A DNA stretch of 64,000 bases from NCBI RefSeq assembly GCF_013839515.1, contig NZ_JACDNQ010000005.1, positions 62,001 to 126,000 of the forward strand, read 5' to 3'. The notes under the pieces were generated by a model, which did not search any database, was not told the origin of the DNA, and saw only the letters and a program-made list of their open reading frames with translations. Position 1 is the stretch's first letter. The number at the start of each line of letters is the position of its first letter. Source of the stretch: Natronomonas salinimetallica. GTDB lineage: Archaea; Halobacteriota; Halobacteria; Halobacteriales; Haloarculaceae. A program made the translations under genes and the position numbers. Below, piece after piece: positions 21,266-26,853 of the stretch.

Positions 21266-22108
21266 TCACGTCGCCCGATCGAACCACGCCGGGCGGTCGA
21301 CGTCGGTCGTCCCGACGTCAACATAGGAGATCCGCCGGGTGACGGCCACGGAGCTCCCGTCGATCCGACCGCTGTACTCGAGTTCGAGGTGCCGTACGAG
21401 TCCGGTCCGGTCGACCTCCGCCAGGAGGGTGACGTTCCGTGCCGGATCGGCCTCCGGGAACGGGAGTTCGGTATCAGGCCCCTCGGCGTCGACCAGCCGG
21501 TAGCGTTCGACGCCGCCGACGGATCGACTCGTCTCGGTCCGGGTCGGGACCGCCTCGAAACTCCGCTCGATCACCCGGGTCGGGGTGGCAAAGACGTCGA
21601 ACGCCCCCGTCGACGCCCAGAACCGCCAGGTTCCGACCCCGGAATCGGTGGGCGAGAACTGGTTGTAGATCGGGTCCGACTCGCCGAACGCCCGAACGTA
21701 GGTCTCCCCATCGGACCAAAACGCCGAGACTGCGGGCGGTTCGCCCAACAGCTTCGGCCCCTCCGGACCGCCGGTCCGAACGGTCGAGGCGTAGGTCCGG
21801 TTTCGTGCGAGGCGAAGTTCCATTCGGTAGCGCGAGCGAACGCTCCCGTTTTCGTATCGCACGGTCTGGTTCGACACCAGCGTGTACGAGCGATTCTCGA
21901 GTCGCTCGTCGTGTGCGGACGCGAGCGCTGTCGGATCGGAAACCCCGCTGTCGTCGATACCCGACGTCCGAGCCACGTCGGAATCTGCCTCCGGAACCGG
22001 CACCGGGGTCACCGTTTCCGTGGGGGTCGACCCCCGATCGACGGCGTCGCCGCCGAGCCCGGAACAGCCCGCAAGCACCACGAGACAGACGACGCACAGT
22101 CTGTACAC
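21266..22108 (-). CDS. Haloarchaeal lipoprotein, DUF7537-like
   Basis: The 280-residue protein has a very short signal ending in lipobox VLAGC (Cys15), followed by a Thr/Pro-rich linker and a soluble domain from about residue 55. The domain has the layout of a common haloarchaeal lipoprotein family: ASAHDERLENRSYTL, an RYRMELRLAR strand, YVRAFGES and a final LEYSGRIDGSSVAVTRRISY stretch, like LolA/LppX-type barrels. It would sit on the outer face of the membrane and bind a lipid or hydrophobic ligand (inference). It is a single gene, divergent from Usp across a palindromic element. Confidence 0.7.
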   Translation of the reverse strand: MYRLCVVCLVVLAGCSGLGGDAVDRGSTPTETVTPVPVPEADSDVARTSGIDDSGVSDPTALASAHDERLENRSYTLVSNQTVRYENGSVRSRYRMELRLARNRTYASTVRTGGPEGPKLLGEPPAVSAFWSDGETYVRAFGESDPIYNQFSPTDSGVGTWRFWASTGAFDVFATPTRVIERSFEAVPTRTETSRSVGGVERYRLVDAEGPDTELPFPEADPARNVTLLAEVDRTGLVRHLELEYSGRIDGSSVAVTRRISYVDVGTTDVDRPAWFDRAT

Positions 22109-22956: not shown

Positions 22957-24462
22957 ATGAGTAGGGACGCCGAAGCGGGGTCGGTACGGGTCGTCGGGAC
23001 GGCCCACGTCTCGGAGGCCAGCGTCGAGGAGGTCGAGTCGGTTATCGACGAGGAGCGACCCGACGTCGTCGCCGTCGAACTCGACGAAGGCCGGTATCGG
23101 CAACTACGCGGTGAGGCACCGGAAGACCTCGACGCAAGCGACCTCCTGAAGGGGAATACGGTCTATCAGTTCCTCGCCTACTGGATGCTCTCGTACGTGC
23201 AGGCACGCCTCGGCGACCGGTTCGACATCGAACCGGGGGCGGACATGAAGGCCGCAGTCGAGCGAGCGGAAGCCGCGGGGATCGACGTCGCACTCGTCGA
23301 TCGGGACATCCAGGTCACGATACAGCGGTTCTGGGCCCGGCTGTCATTCCCCGAAAAGCTAAGACTCGGCGGCAGCCTCGCCGTCGGCCTCGGCGATCCC
23401 CGAGAGATCGGAATGGGCGTCGGTATCGGTATCGGCTTGGTATTCTCGATCCTCGCCGGTGCCGTCGCGGGGCCGTTTGTCGTCCCGGAGTCGCTCGCTC
23501 CGAGTGTCCTCGTCGGGCTCCTCGATACGGTCATCGTCGCGCTCGGTCTCGGGCTGTGTATCGGGGTCGCCGTCATTCTCGCACTGGAGGGGCTCGCCCC
23601 CGAGGACGACGACCTCCAGGAGATCGACATCGACCGGATGACCGACACCGACGTCGTCGGTGCGATGATGGAGGAGTTCCGCCGGTTCTCCCCGGGCGGC
23701 GCGGAGGCGCTCATCGACGAACGCGACGCCTACATCGCCCACCAGCTCGTCACGCTGCGAAAGAAGGGATACGACGTCATCGCGGTCGTCGGCGCGGGAC
23801 ATCGAGAGGGGATCGAGCGCTACCTCGAAACGCCGTCGTTGCTGCCGCCGATGGAGTCGATCACCGGGCGGACTTCCGGGGGCCGGATCTCGTTGTACAA
23901 GGTGTTCGGCTACGTCTTTACGCTCGGCTTTCTCGTCTTCTTCGTGCTGTTGGCGATCGCGACGTATACCGGCGTCGAGGGTGCCTCCAGCGGGCTGTTG
24001 TTCCGGCTATTTGTGGCGTGGTTCATGATCAACGGGATCCTCGCGTTCGGCCTCGCCAAACTCGCCGGTGCCCACTGGCGTTCGGCGGGAGTCGGCGGCG
24101 CGATCGCGTGGCTGACGAGCGTCAACCCGCTTCTCGCCCCCGGATGGTTCGCGGGATACGTCGAGTTGCGGTATCTCGACGTCAATGTCGGCGATATCTC
24201 GACGCTCAACGAGATCATGTCCGACGAGGAGGCACCGCTCCGGCAGCTATGGAACGATCTCACGTCCGTACCGTTGTTCAAGCTCATCATGATCGTCGCG
24301 CTGACGAACGTGGGAAGCTTCGTCGGGAGCGTCGTCTTCGCGACGGTACTGTTGCCGTATCTGTTCGCAGGCTCGGGAATCGAGGGTGCCGGCGGCGTCG
24401 CGAGGCTGATGATCGAGGCCGCACGCAACAGCTTGGAGATCCTGACCGGGGGACTCACATGA
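22957..24462 (+). CDS. TraB family membrane protein
   Basis: The 501-residue protein belongs to the TraB/GumN family. The N-terminal half carries the Tiki-like motifs GTAHVSEAS (about residues 14-22), VAVELDEGRYRQL (about 39-51) and a later GAGHREGIERYL (about 278-289), the set proposed to bind metal in TraB/TIKI proteases. Two helices lie near residues 155-210, and a C-terminal membrane region of about five helices follows (about 310-495). TraB in Enterococcus lowers pheromone activity; the archaeal role is unknown. The stop codon overlaps the start of an M50 protease gene (ATGA), so the two products are probably made together. Confidence 0.85.
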   Translation: MSRDAEAGSVRVVGTAHVSEASVEEVESVIDEERPDVVAVELDEGRYRQLRGEAPEDLDASDLLKGNTVYQFLAYWMLSYVQARLGDRFDIEPGADMKAAVERAEAAGIDVALVDRDIQVTIQRFWARLSFPEKLRLGGSLAVGLGDPREIGMGVGIGIGLVFSILAGAVAGPFVVPESLAPSVLVGLLDTVIVALGLGLCIGVAVILALEGLAPEDDDLQEIDIDRMTDTDVVGAMMEEFRRFSPGGAEALIDERDAYIAHQLVTLRKKGYDVIAVVGAGHREGIERYLETPSLLPPMESITGRTSGGRISLYKVFGYVFTLGFLVFFVLLAIATYTGVEGASSGLLFRLFVAWFMINGILAFGLAKLAGAHWRSAGVGGAIAWLTSVNPLLAPGWFAGYVELRYLDVNVGDISTLNEIMSDEEAPLRQLWNDLTSVPLFKLIMIVALTNVGSFVGSVVFATVLLPYLFAGSGIEGAGGVARLMIEAARNSLEILTGGLT

Positions 24463-25109
24463 GTGCCGTTCGTATCAGCGGTGTTCGGTTTTACTCCGAC
24501 GAGATACGTGATCTCCTCGTCGCGTGGGCCGCACTCGGCGTCGCGTTCAGCGTCTTCATCCTCGTCGCTACCGGGCGAGCGGTGTTTCCCGATATCGCCA
24601 ACGCGGTGTTCTCTCCGACCTTTGCTCGGGTGTTCACCGCCAGCATGTTGACCGTCGGCGTCGGCTTTCTCCTCCACGAGATTGCCCACAAAGTCGTCGC
24701 GGTCCGGTTCGGACAGACCGCATCGTTCAAGGCCGATTACAGGATGTTAGCGCTGTGTGTCGGTGCCGCGTTCGCGGGCTTTCTGTTCGCCGCACCCGGC
24801 GCGGTGTATCACCGCGGCCGGATCACACGGCGACAGGGTGGGCTGGTCTCCGTCGCCGGGCCGTTGACCAACGTCGGACTAGTGGCGCTTTTCCTCCCGC
24901 TCGTCTTCGTCGGCGGTTTTCTCGGCGAGGTCGGCGGGCTCGGCGTCCTGATCAACGCCTTCCTCGCGGCGTTCAACATGCTCCCGTTCGGACCGCTCGA
25001 CGGGAAATCAGTCCTCTCGTGGAGCAAACCGGCGTTCGCGGTCGTCTTCGCCGGCTCGGTGCTGTTGGCGGTCGGGGCGTTCCTCCTCGTTGGCTTTCCG
25101 AGGTTCTGA
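24459..25109 (+). CDS. Site-2 protease-like M50 metallopeptidase
   Basis: The 216-residue membrane protein has the zinc motif HEIAH (about residues 67-71) in a helix and the second motif NMLPFGPLDGK (about 167-177) with the third ligand Asp, as in M50 site-2 proteases. About six transmembrane helices are visible. It lacks PDZ and CBS domains, so it is a minimal S2P. These enzymes cut transmembrane segments. The ATG at 24459 overlaps the TraB stop codon by 4 nt, giving a coupled TraB-S2P pair. The substrate is not encoded nearby in an obvious way. Confidence 0.85.
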   Translation: MSAVRISGVRFYSDEIRDLLVAWAALGVAFSVFILVATGRAVFPDIANAVFSPTFARVFTASMLTVGVGFLLHEIAHKVVAVRFGQTASFKADYRMLALCVGAAFAGFLFAAPGAVYHRGRITRRQGGLVSVAGPLTNVGLVALFLPLVFVGGFLGEVGGLGVLINAFLAAFNMLPFGPLDGKSVLSWSKPAFAVVFAGSVLLAVGAFLLVGFPRF

Positions 25110-25163: not shown

Positions 25164-26144
25164 ATGAGCGACGACGACCCCGATAAGGGGCTCACGTACG
25201 CCGAGACGGGCGTCGACATCGACGAGAGCGAGGCGGCGACCGCCGCACTTCTCGGCGCGATCGGCGAGTTCGATGGCGACTTCGCCGGACTCGTCGACAT
25301 CGGTGATCGCTACCTGGCACTCGCGACCGACGGCGTCGGGACGAAACTGCTTGTCGCCGAGGCGCTCTCCGACTACTCGACGATCGGCATCGACTGCATC
25401 GCGATGAACGCGAACGATCTCATCGCGGCGGGCGTGACGCCGGTCGCCTTCGTCGACTACCTCGCCGTCGAAACACCGGACGACGAGACGGCCGAGCGGG
25501 TCGGAGACGGCCTTGCCGCCGGCGCAGAGCGCGCAGATATCGCACTCGTCGGCGGCGAGACCGCGGTGATGCCCGAGGTTATACGAGGGCTGGACCTCGC
25601 CGGGGCGTGTGCCGGCTTGGCGACCGAGGCGGAGCTATTCGACGGCGATGCGCGGATCGGTGATCGCCTCGTGGGCATCCCCTCCTCCGGGATTCACTCG
25701 AACGGGCTGACACTCGCGCGGGAAGCGGTTACCCGAAACCACGACTACACCGACCCGTTCCCACACGACGGGGATCGGACGATCGGCCAGGTGTTGCTCG
25801 AACCGACGCGCATCTATCGGGAGGTCCTCGAGCCACTGCACGCCGTCGACACGCATGCGACGGCCCACATCACCGGCGGCGGGTGGACGAACCTCGAACG
25901 GATGGGGGAGAACCGTTACGTGATCGAGGATGCCTTCGATCCGCAGGCGGTCTTCGAGTTCATCCAGACCGAGGGGGAGATCACCGACGAGGAGATGCAT
26001 CGGACGTTCAACATGGGCACGGGATTCGTCGCGGCGCTTCCAGAGGCGGATGCGGAAGCGGTCGCTGCCGACCTCGACGACGCACGGATCATCGGTCGCG
26101 TCGAGTCGGGTAATGGGGTCTCGATCCGCGGGCTAGAACTGTAG
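25164..26144 (+). CDS. purM: Phosphoribosylformylglycinamidine cyclo-ligase
   Basis: The 326-residue protein is a complete AIR synthetase, which closes the imidazole ring of FGAM to AIR with ATP in purine synthesis. Diagnostic segments are LTYAETGVDIDE at the N terminus, ATDGVGTKL (about residues 54-62), DCIAMNANDLIAAGVTPVAFVDY (in two parts, about 76-98), GGETAVMPEV, SSGIHSNGLTLAR and HITGGGWTNLERM. Length is that of the haloarchaeal family. The ATG at 25164 is preferred over an upstream in-frame codon at 25137. It is downstream of the TraB-M50 pair by 54 nt and is probably transcribed separately. Confidence 0.95.
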   Translation: MSDDDPDKGLTYAETGVDIDESEAATAALLGAIGEFDGDFAGLVDIGDRYLALATDGVGTKLLVAEALSDYSTIGIDCIAMNANDLIAAGVTPVAFVDYLAVETPDDETAERVGDGLAAGAERADIALVGGETAVMPEVIRGLDLAGACAGLATEAELFDGDARIGDRLVGIPSSGIHSNGLTLAREAVTRNHDYTDPFPHDGDRTIGQVLLEPTRIYREVLEPLHAVDTHATAHITGGGWTNLERMGENRYVIEDAFDPQAVFEFIQTEGEITDEEMHRTFNMGTGFVAALPEADAEAVAADLDDARIIGRVESGNGVSIRGLEL

Positions 26145-26304: not shown

Positions 26305-26853
26305 ATGACGATGGACCTGCCGACGAACGCCGATTTAAAAAAGCGTCGGACGGAGTTGGAGCTGACACAGAGTGAGCTCGCCGACCGGGCCGACGTCTCC
26401 CAGCCGTTGATCGCGCGCATCGAAGGCGGGGACGTAGACCCACGGCTCTCGACGCTCCGACGCATCGTCAACGCGCTCGACGAGGCCGAAAGCGCCGTGA
26501 TGCATGCCGCCGACATCATGCACGAGGGTGTCGTCGACGTCGCCCCGGACGACAGCGTCCGGGAGGCGATCGACGTGATGGTCAAGGAAGGATACTCCCA
26601 GCTTCCGGTCGTCCGGGACGGGCGTCCGCAAGGGATCATCTCGAACTCCGATATCCGTCGACTCGATCCGGACAGCGCGGGCGAACGTCCGGTCGCCGAC
26701 GCGATGCGGGAGGCGATCACGACCGTCGAGCCGGACGCGACGCTGGACGAAGTAAACGCTCATCTCAATCACCAAGACGCGGTGATGGTCGTCGAGGACG
26801 GTCAGCTATGCGGCATAATCACGGAGGCCGACGTCGCGGCGCACGTCTCCTGA
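26305..26853 (+). CDS. HTH (XRE) plus CBS-pair regulator
   Basis: The 182-residue protein joins an XRE-type helix-turn-helix (about residues 8-60: KKRRTELELTQSELADRADVSQPLIARIEGG, in two parts) with two CBS domains (about 68-122 and 126-180; IMHEGVVDVAPDDSVREAIDVM and MREAITTVEPDATLDEVN). CBS pairs bind adenine nucleotides or SAM, so this looks like a DNA-binding regulator responding to cell energy or a nucleotide, a design common in archaea. TATA-like boxes GTATATAAAC (26251-) and TGTATAAC (26279-) precede it. A regulon cannot be assigned. Confidence 0.88.
   Translation: MTMDLPTNADLKKRRTELELTQSELADRADVSQPLIARIEGGDVDPRLSTLRRIVNALDEAESAVMHAADIMHEGVVDVAPDDSVREAIDVMVKEGYSQLPVVRDGRPQGIISNSDIRRLDPDSAGERPVADAMREAITTVEPDATLDEVNAHLNHQDAVMVVEDGQLCGIITEADVAAHVS

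Follow-up and report, generated by a model that had tools for sequence, protein, structure and literature searches.

In Enterococcus, pheromone is released from the signal peptides of lipoproteins by the membrane metalloprotease Eep, and the TraB homologue PrgY is believed to degrade the pheromone and to do so outside the cell (PMC7117660). Tiki/TraB proteins also occur in peptide-maturation loci (PMC8939145). For the archaeon Haloferax volcanii, four site-2 protease (S2P) homologues have been listed, i.e., HVO_0285, HVO_1555, HVO_1862 and HVO_1870, two of them without extra domains, and their function is given as unknown (PMC9263693). The word TraB does not occur in the accessible text of the Haloferax protease reviews that list S2Ps (PMC9263693, PMC4343526). 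No report of an archaeal TraB–S2P pairing was found among the matches listed in the open-licence literature, subscription literature being outside that scope, and no assigned function for archaeal TraB was found in the open-licence literature. Here, such a pair was analyzed in a stretch of 64,000 nucleotides from Natronomonas salinimetallica (contig NZ_JACDNQ010000005.1, positions 62,001 to 126,000), referred to as the window. A gene for a TraB/PrgY-family membrane protein (22957–24462, plus strand, ATG start, 501 amino acids) is followed by a gene for a minimal M50 site-2 protease, M50S (24459–25109, plus strand, ATG start, 216 amino acids). As stated in an earlier note on this DNA, the genes overlap by 4 nucleotides, with the stop/start sequence ATGA (24459–24462, plus strand) common to both open reading frames. 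Judged from comparisons of gene order and protein sequence, this TraB–S2P gene module is very probably real and old.

The family assignment of TraB was based on matches to TIGR00261 (267.3 bits; cut-off 178.35) and PF01963 (92.1 bits; cut-off 26.8) and on comparison of its structural model with TIKI folds. With 27.0 bits, the window M50 scored slightly below the gathering cut-off of PF02163 (27.2), and a related protein from locus L143 reached 43.8 bits. Neither a PDZ nor a CBS domain was found in the 216 amino acids of the window M50. The genome of N. salinimetallica carries a single TraB, and M50 matches were present at four further places. One of these is an S2P with CBS domains (CBS-S2P) that is 44% identical to the CBS-S2P located upstream of TraB in other archaea. 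The closest TraBs in named genomes are those of Natronomonas, with 83–84%.

The pairing was followed in other haloarchaea, as the earlier note had proposed. When named genomes were scanned with TraB, 158 loci were confirmed, and 80 of these were retained. In 79 of the 80 haloarchaeal loci, TraB has a co-oriented M50 gene downstream; in the remaining one, L124, the contig stops inside TraB. In addition, 60 genomes of the window's order were counted, including N. salinimetallica itself and excluding weak M50 rows (E above 1e-30). TraB was present in 58, a strong M50 match in 56 and both genes in 55 of them. M50 was located directly 3' of TraB in 52 of the 55 genomes with both genes, where, as in the phylum-level count, genes on separate contigs of fragmented genomes were scored as non-adjacent. 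The two genes were separated in G043, G045 and G058. TraB was present without a strong M50 match in G036, G049 and G052, M50 without TraB in G006, and neither gene in G050. The TraB–M50 pairing is far above chance level.

The spacing of the genes was surveyed using mechanical calls of gene starts, for which 70 of the 80 loci were usable for TraB–M50 and 72 for purM, the conserved neighbour of M50 (25164–26144 in the window, plus strand; TIGR00878, 298 bits). The gap between TraB and M50 was 0 nucleotides or less in 45 of the 70 loci and 30 nucleotides or less in 67. The spacing of −4 seen in the window was shared by 35 of the 70 haloarchaeal loci, and a spacing of −1 was observed in nine. purM was found within 1.5 kb in 59 of the 72 loci with room and within 4 kb in 70, and it was on the same strand in 71. 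Since TraB and M50 overlap or abut in 45 of 70 loci, whereas the same-strand gap between M50 and purM was at least 38 nucleotides in all 71, TraB and M50 look co-translated and purM looks like a separate unit; purM is not believed to take part in the mechanism.

In order to extend the comparison, 120 genomes were drawn evenly from the phylum, and adjacency was defined as location on the same contig and strand within less than 700 bp. TIGR00261 matched in 119 genomes, the M50 profile in 71 (67 strong matches, which were used) and the CBS-domain S2P profile in 115. The count omits the weaker M50 matches of the f25 genomes G067, G076, G086 and G095, none of which lies beside TraB according to its coordinates. 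TraB adjoined a site-2 protease of either kind in 77 of the 119 TraB genomes. M50 was the neighbour in 36 genomes and always downstream of TraB (36/36), CBS-S2P was the neighbour in 57 genomes and always upstream (57/57), and TraB was flanked by both in 16. The draw contained 19 genomes of the window's order, and TraB and M50 were adjacent in every one of them. Among the other TraB genomes, an S2P neighbour was found in 58 of 100, spread over 11 of 20 families. Restriction of the pairing to this genome or lineage, which the earlier note had named as speaking against its idea, was thus rejected at each level sampled, i.e., in the named loci (79/80), in the order (52/55) and in the phylum (77/119). 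In one Cytobacillus TraB region, no M50 was annotated within 5 kb on either side.

The phylum-wide regions also suggest where the haloarchaeal arrangement came from. In families f18, f23, f28 and f31, the order CBS-S2P, TraB, M50, aspartate kinase, purM was found, with a PRC-barrel gene and a gene for a tRNA-His guanylyltransferase-like protein (Thg1) divergent. These two divergent genes were seen beside S2P–TraB–M50 at loci L143–L147 and L149–L152, from four families; the names PRC-barrel and Thg1 are our assumption from the appearance of the proteins, made without a family search. Parts of the cluster are retained in f26 (S2P–TraB–M50 with aspartate kinase nearby) and in f32 (L148), where purM and Thg1 were not seen. 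TraB was located directly behind CBS-S2P in families without M50 (f19, 12/12; f21, 13/18; f30, 2/2), in f25, which has only weaker M50 matches (4/4), and in f33, where M50 occurs in one genome and elsewhere (6/6). In seven of the eight such regions fetched (L169–L174 and L182), CBS-S2P–TraB stood apart from every other cluster gene looked for, and PRC and Thg1 were still present in the eighth (L175). The haloarchaeal TraB–M50–purM group looks like a remnant of the cluster CBS-S2P, TraB, M50, aspartate kinase, purM. In a TraB tree of 47 rows from a short search, the paired haloarchaeal TraBs formed one group (support 99), to which the TraBs of G043, G045 and G058 were sister; seven unpaired TraBs made up the next clade. 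The simplest reading of this history would be an old cluster with repeated dispersal and not repeated assembly, so that the fixed gene order may partly reflect descent.

The residues expected of a site-2 protease were present in the window M50. In alignments of 64 haloarchaeal and 20 phylum-wide rows, H73, E74 and H77 of the HExxH zinc-binding motif HEIAH (residues 73–77; 24675–24689, plus strand) were invariant (64/64 and 20/20). The same holds true for N173, P176, D181 and G182 of the second motif, N173..P176..LDG (residues 173–182; 24975–25004, plus strand), in which Asp181 is the expected third zinc ligand. An AlphaFold2 model of the protein (predicted local distance difference test, pLDDT, 93; predicted template modelling score, pTM, 0.88) placed HExxH in helix 53–83, a predicted transmembrane helix, and was consistent with the S2P core fold. 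Its structural matches included SpoIVFB (Z 8.8), an RseP orthologue (Z 8.4) and MjS2P (Z 8.4), and the top six rows were M50 entries, if the sixth, a RasP–EcsA model, is an M50 protein as we assume. SpoIVFB and RseP are bacterial proteins that carry additional CBS or PDZ domains and whose substrates are known. MjS2P (MJ0392, 3B4R) and the archaeal CBS-S2Ps share with the window M50 the M50 core, HExxH and the second motif containing Asp. In contrast to them, the window M50 is a member of a distinct, minimal family that lacks CBS domains, and its profile matched 3B4R weakly (E 5.7e-4). An M50 part plus two CBS stretches were found in all five CBS-S2P proteins scanned, and H68, E69, H72 and D167 were invariant in 12 CBS-S2P rows.

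The TraB/PrgY family is characterized by GX2H motifs. For the window TraB, a catalytic domain of TIKI fold is predicted at the N-terminus, divided into two halves by a two-helix membrane insert and followed by a C-terminal membrane tail. Alignments of 83 haloarchaeal and 41 phylum-wide rows were examined; intact TraB was not obtained at 24 of 110 loci (18 reverse-oriented, five with frame breaks and one at a contig end). Two GX2H motifs as well as conserved Glu and Arg residues were present. In the first motif, GTAH (residues 14–17; 22996–23007, plus strand), H17 was conserved in 81 of 83 rows (one gap, one P) and in 41/41, and G14 in 39/41. In the second motif, GAGH (residues 279–282; 23791–23802, plus strand), G279, G281 and H282 were conserved in 83/83 and 41/41. 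Glu41 (23077–23079, plus strand) was present in 82/83 and 41/41 rows, and Arg116 in LVDRDI (23302–23304, plus strand) in 83/83 and 41/41. In total, H17, E41, R46, D115, R116, E240, E255, R256, D257, G279, G281 and H282 were invariant in the 41 phylum-wide rows. Hence the motif residues, whose non-conservation the earlier note would have counted against its proposal, are conserved throughout the phylum-wide sample (41/41 for H17, E41, R116 and H282). The TIKI active site has been described as a metal-independent 2His/2Glu site (PMC6254334).

The AlphaFold2 model of TraB (pLDDT 79, pTM 0.67) had insert helices at residues 148–171 and 183–213. Its top structural match, with Z 13.0, was 8b6h_DQ, a mitochondrial complex IV subunit from Tetrahymena and apparently a TIKI-like protein within a respiratory complex. 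Further matches were ChaN (Z 8.8), EreC (Z 6.7), HopBA1 (Z 6.5), BcR135 (Z 6.4) and 6a7h (Z 5.7), the last being, as we infer from its residue numbers, VvRRSP. ChaN, HopBA1 and BcR135 are given as TIKI relatives of VvRRSP (PMC6254334). Single TIKI Z values are not decisive, since unrelated methyltransferases scored 6.7–6.8 in the same list. A TIKI alpha/beta fold for TraB is nevertheless credible despite Z values below 8, since several known members appeared near the top of the list. No TIKI match was obtained in a profile search of solved structures with TraB. The archaeal TraBs resemble the TIKI proteins EreC, HopBA1, VvRRSP, Tiki and ChaN in predicted fold and in the conserved GX2H and Glu residues. 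They differ by a C-terminal membrane tail, which is usually present, and, in most haloarchaea, by a membrane hairpin within the domain.

The side of the membrane on which the TraB domain resides was approached through the insert between the catalytic halves (residues 135–228; 23359–23640, plus strand), which is predicted to carry a transmembrane hairpin and varies in length by lineage. No membrane segment preceded the insert in any of the 83 rows. The insert was shorter than 40 amino acids in five rows, 80–120 amino acids long in 41 and 140–190 amino acids long in 37. It steps in length between lineages, from 28 amino acids in Halorussus loci such as L127 to as many as 178 in L099. These classes are read as zero, two or four helices, i.e., as added hairpins that would leave both halves on the same side. 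Hydropathy gave three or five insert helices in 19 of 83 rows, against an even number, and four for the 104-amino-acid insert of L095. Most odd counts may be threshold noise, a reading suggested by the fall of insert lengths into three classes. In 27 two-helix inserts, the hairpin loop contained on average 0.07 Lys/Arg residues as compared to 2.5 in the flanks. The TraBs of L151–L154, of about 229–243 amino acids and directly beside M50, have no predicted membrane segment. In three of them, viewed as sequence, the domain begins at the N-terminus; L149 and L150, from the same genus as L151/L152, retain the membrane tail. From the segment-free first half, the hairpin loop poor in Lys/Arg and the membrane-free TraBs of L151–L154, it is concluded that the archaeal TraB domain is probably cytosolic.

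How the two proteins might work together is suggested by the enterococcal system. Eep is, we assume, itself an M50 protease, and the archaeal TraB of L143 can be aligned along 98% of its length with the TraB of an enterococcal plasmid (33% identity, E 1e-41). In both systems, a membrane metalloprotease and a membrane protein of the TraB family would have one peptide as their common target, with the difference that Eep is chromosomal and PrgY plasmid-borne, whereas the archaeal genes are chromosomal neighbours. This full-length homology, together with the Eep/PrgY precedent, makes peptide processing by the archaeal pair plausible and favours a unit for peptide release and disposal; by analogy, processing of membrane peptides would be the most likely role of the module. 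The haloarchaeal pair would be what remains of an old operon for a membrane proteolysis unit consisting of a CBS-domain S2P, TraB and a minimal M50. The M50 would cut its substrates inside the membrane and release the peptides to the cytosolic side; remnants of signal peptides, or short membrane segments of another kind, would be the most likely targets. TraB, with its cytosolic TIKI domain on a membrane anchor, would bind the released peptides and hydrolyse or otherwise dispose of them. In other archaea, the CBS-domain S2P may contribute an energy- or nucleotide-sensing input. The unit would work like Eep, which frees signal-peptide-derived pheromones, and PrgY/TraB, which removes them, except as co-expressed neighbours. 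This division of labour, with the cutting of membrane peptides left to the S2Ps and the handling of the products to TraB, is given a probability of about 0.4. It is rather doubtful that, beyond this, archaea possess an ancient, dedicated S2P–TraB–S2P unit in which two intramembrane proteases and a TIKI hydrolase facing the cytosol jointly process and destroy membrane peptides, and that the Eep/PrgY pheromone control of Enterococcus is a specialised relative of such a general system for peptide clearing or peptide signalling. The two-protease membrane module of the earlier note holds as a gene module, with two S2Ps around TraB in some archaea; its pheromone part is a candidate reading.

Observations on gene order and on the proteins weigh against a peptide release-and-disposal unit. 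As to gene order, TraB was apart from both S2Ps in 42 of 119 genomes, including all sampled genomes of nine families, and 28 of these 42 carry M50 elsewhere. Outside the haloarchaea, TraB and a strong M50 were not neighbours in 30 of 47 genomes with both, and in 28 of these 30, TraB was beside neither S2P. In the basal haloarchaeal genomes G043, G045 and G058, M50 has stayed with purM and TraB is located elsewhere; there, the M50–purM linkage has outlasted that of TraB and M50. Because so many genomes hold TraB apart from both S2Ps, inherited gene order is a real rival: TraB, M50, aspartate kinase and purM would have been kept together by descent without a common task. The frequent location of purM beside M50 in haloarchaea is in line with this explanation, as is the presence of unrelated genes (aspartate kinase, purM, PRC-barrel, Thg1) in the ancestral-like cluster. 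However, TraB and M50 overlap or nearly do so, and M50 and purM do not. Moreover, TraB retains an S2P neighbour of either family, each on its fixed side, where other cluster genes are not near. General synteny was therefore rejected as the full account, since the two spacings differ and the TraB–S2P link outlasts the neighbours in several families, and inherited order without a shared task is considered unlikely.

As to the proteins, their fold assignments have moderate support: only the Tetrahymena subunit passed E ≤ 0.001 in a Foldseek search with the TraB model, and nothing did so with the M50 model (best match MjS2P, 1.8e-3). Not all TIKI-fold proteins are proteases, EreC being an esterase and PMT lacking the catalytic set (PMC6254334), and ChaN binds heme according to the title of entry 2g5g. 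The predicted cytosolic location of the archaeal TraB domain differs from that of PrgY, for which action outside the cell is assumed. Finally, a TraB deletion was obtained in Methanococcus maripaludis without a reported transformation defect, so that TraB is dispensable there (PMC10133366). In the Methanococcus transformation screen, single hits were found beside TraB and in the M50 peptidase gene MMJJ_13210 (PMC10133366). Instead of being a protease, TraB might serve the S2P as a membrane partner, regulating or positioning it, with the TIKI residues of TraB binding a ligand, heme or metal. The best fold match of TraB being a complex IV subunit, and the next distinct one the heme-binding ChaN, is compatible with this proposal. 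Protease action of the mitochondrial TRABD is stated to be open (PMC12329661), and SpoIVFB is inhibited by its partner proteins BofA and SpoIVFA (PMC9042235). On the other hand, H17, E41 and H282 and further acidic and Arg positions are invariant in all 41 rows, as expected of a hydrolytic TIKI site, and a non-protease TraB is regarded as about as improbable as mere inheritance of gene order.

Of eight neighbours in the window tested for co-occurrence with the pair, M50, purM and a helix-turn-helix (HTH) plus CBS-domain regulator were the only recurrent ones. The regulator gene is located 3' of purM (26311–26850); of 71 haloarchaeal loci with room, 37 have it downstream of TraB at a distance of no more than 4 kb. 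The others were ruled out as linked genes by their rare or nil co-occurrence. A USP gene was no farther than 1.5 kb away at 4 of 79 loci with room. A GCS2-like gene was absent within 4 kb in all 73 loci, with two found farther away, and neither a glycosyltransferase nor a GNAT neighbour was found in 69 loci each. The DUF7537 protein with a lipobox-like start, encoded upstream of the pair on the minus strand (21266–22108), had no match in the fetched stretch of any of the 76 other loci with room.

These neighbours bear on the possibility of regulated intramembrane proteolysis, in which an initial cut, with TraB acting as its protease or as a gate, is followed by release of a membrane-tethered regulator by the S2P. 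S2Ps have been described as members of cascades that signal through sequential intramembrane proteolysis (PMC9263693), and the CBS-S2P partner carries a likely sensing domain. However, no evident tethered regulator was present among the eight window neighbours tested, those of other genomes not having been surveyed for one, and a site-1 protease would not be expected in the cytosol, where the TraB domain is predicted to reside. Such a cascade is accordingly thought to be quite improbable. A secreted peptide-pheromone pathway, with M50 making the signal and TraB silencing it, would fit the homology and functional parallel to Eep and PrgY but is very unlikely, as no evident precursor, exporter or receptor travels with the pair among the eight window neighbours tested (other genes were not surveyed), the TraB domain is predicted to be cytosolic and the presence of TraB in 119 of 120 genomes suggests a housekeeping role.

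The gene partnership provides a concrete, testable hypothesis for both the TraB and the M50 families in archaea. It would link membrane proteolysis in archaea with the Tiki proteins of animals and with pheromone shutdown in enterococci.

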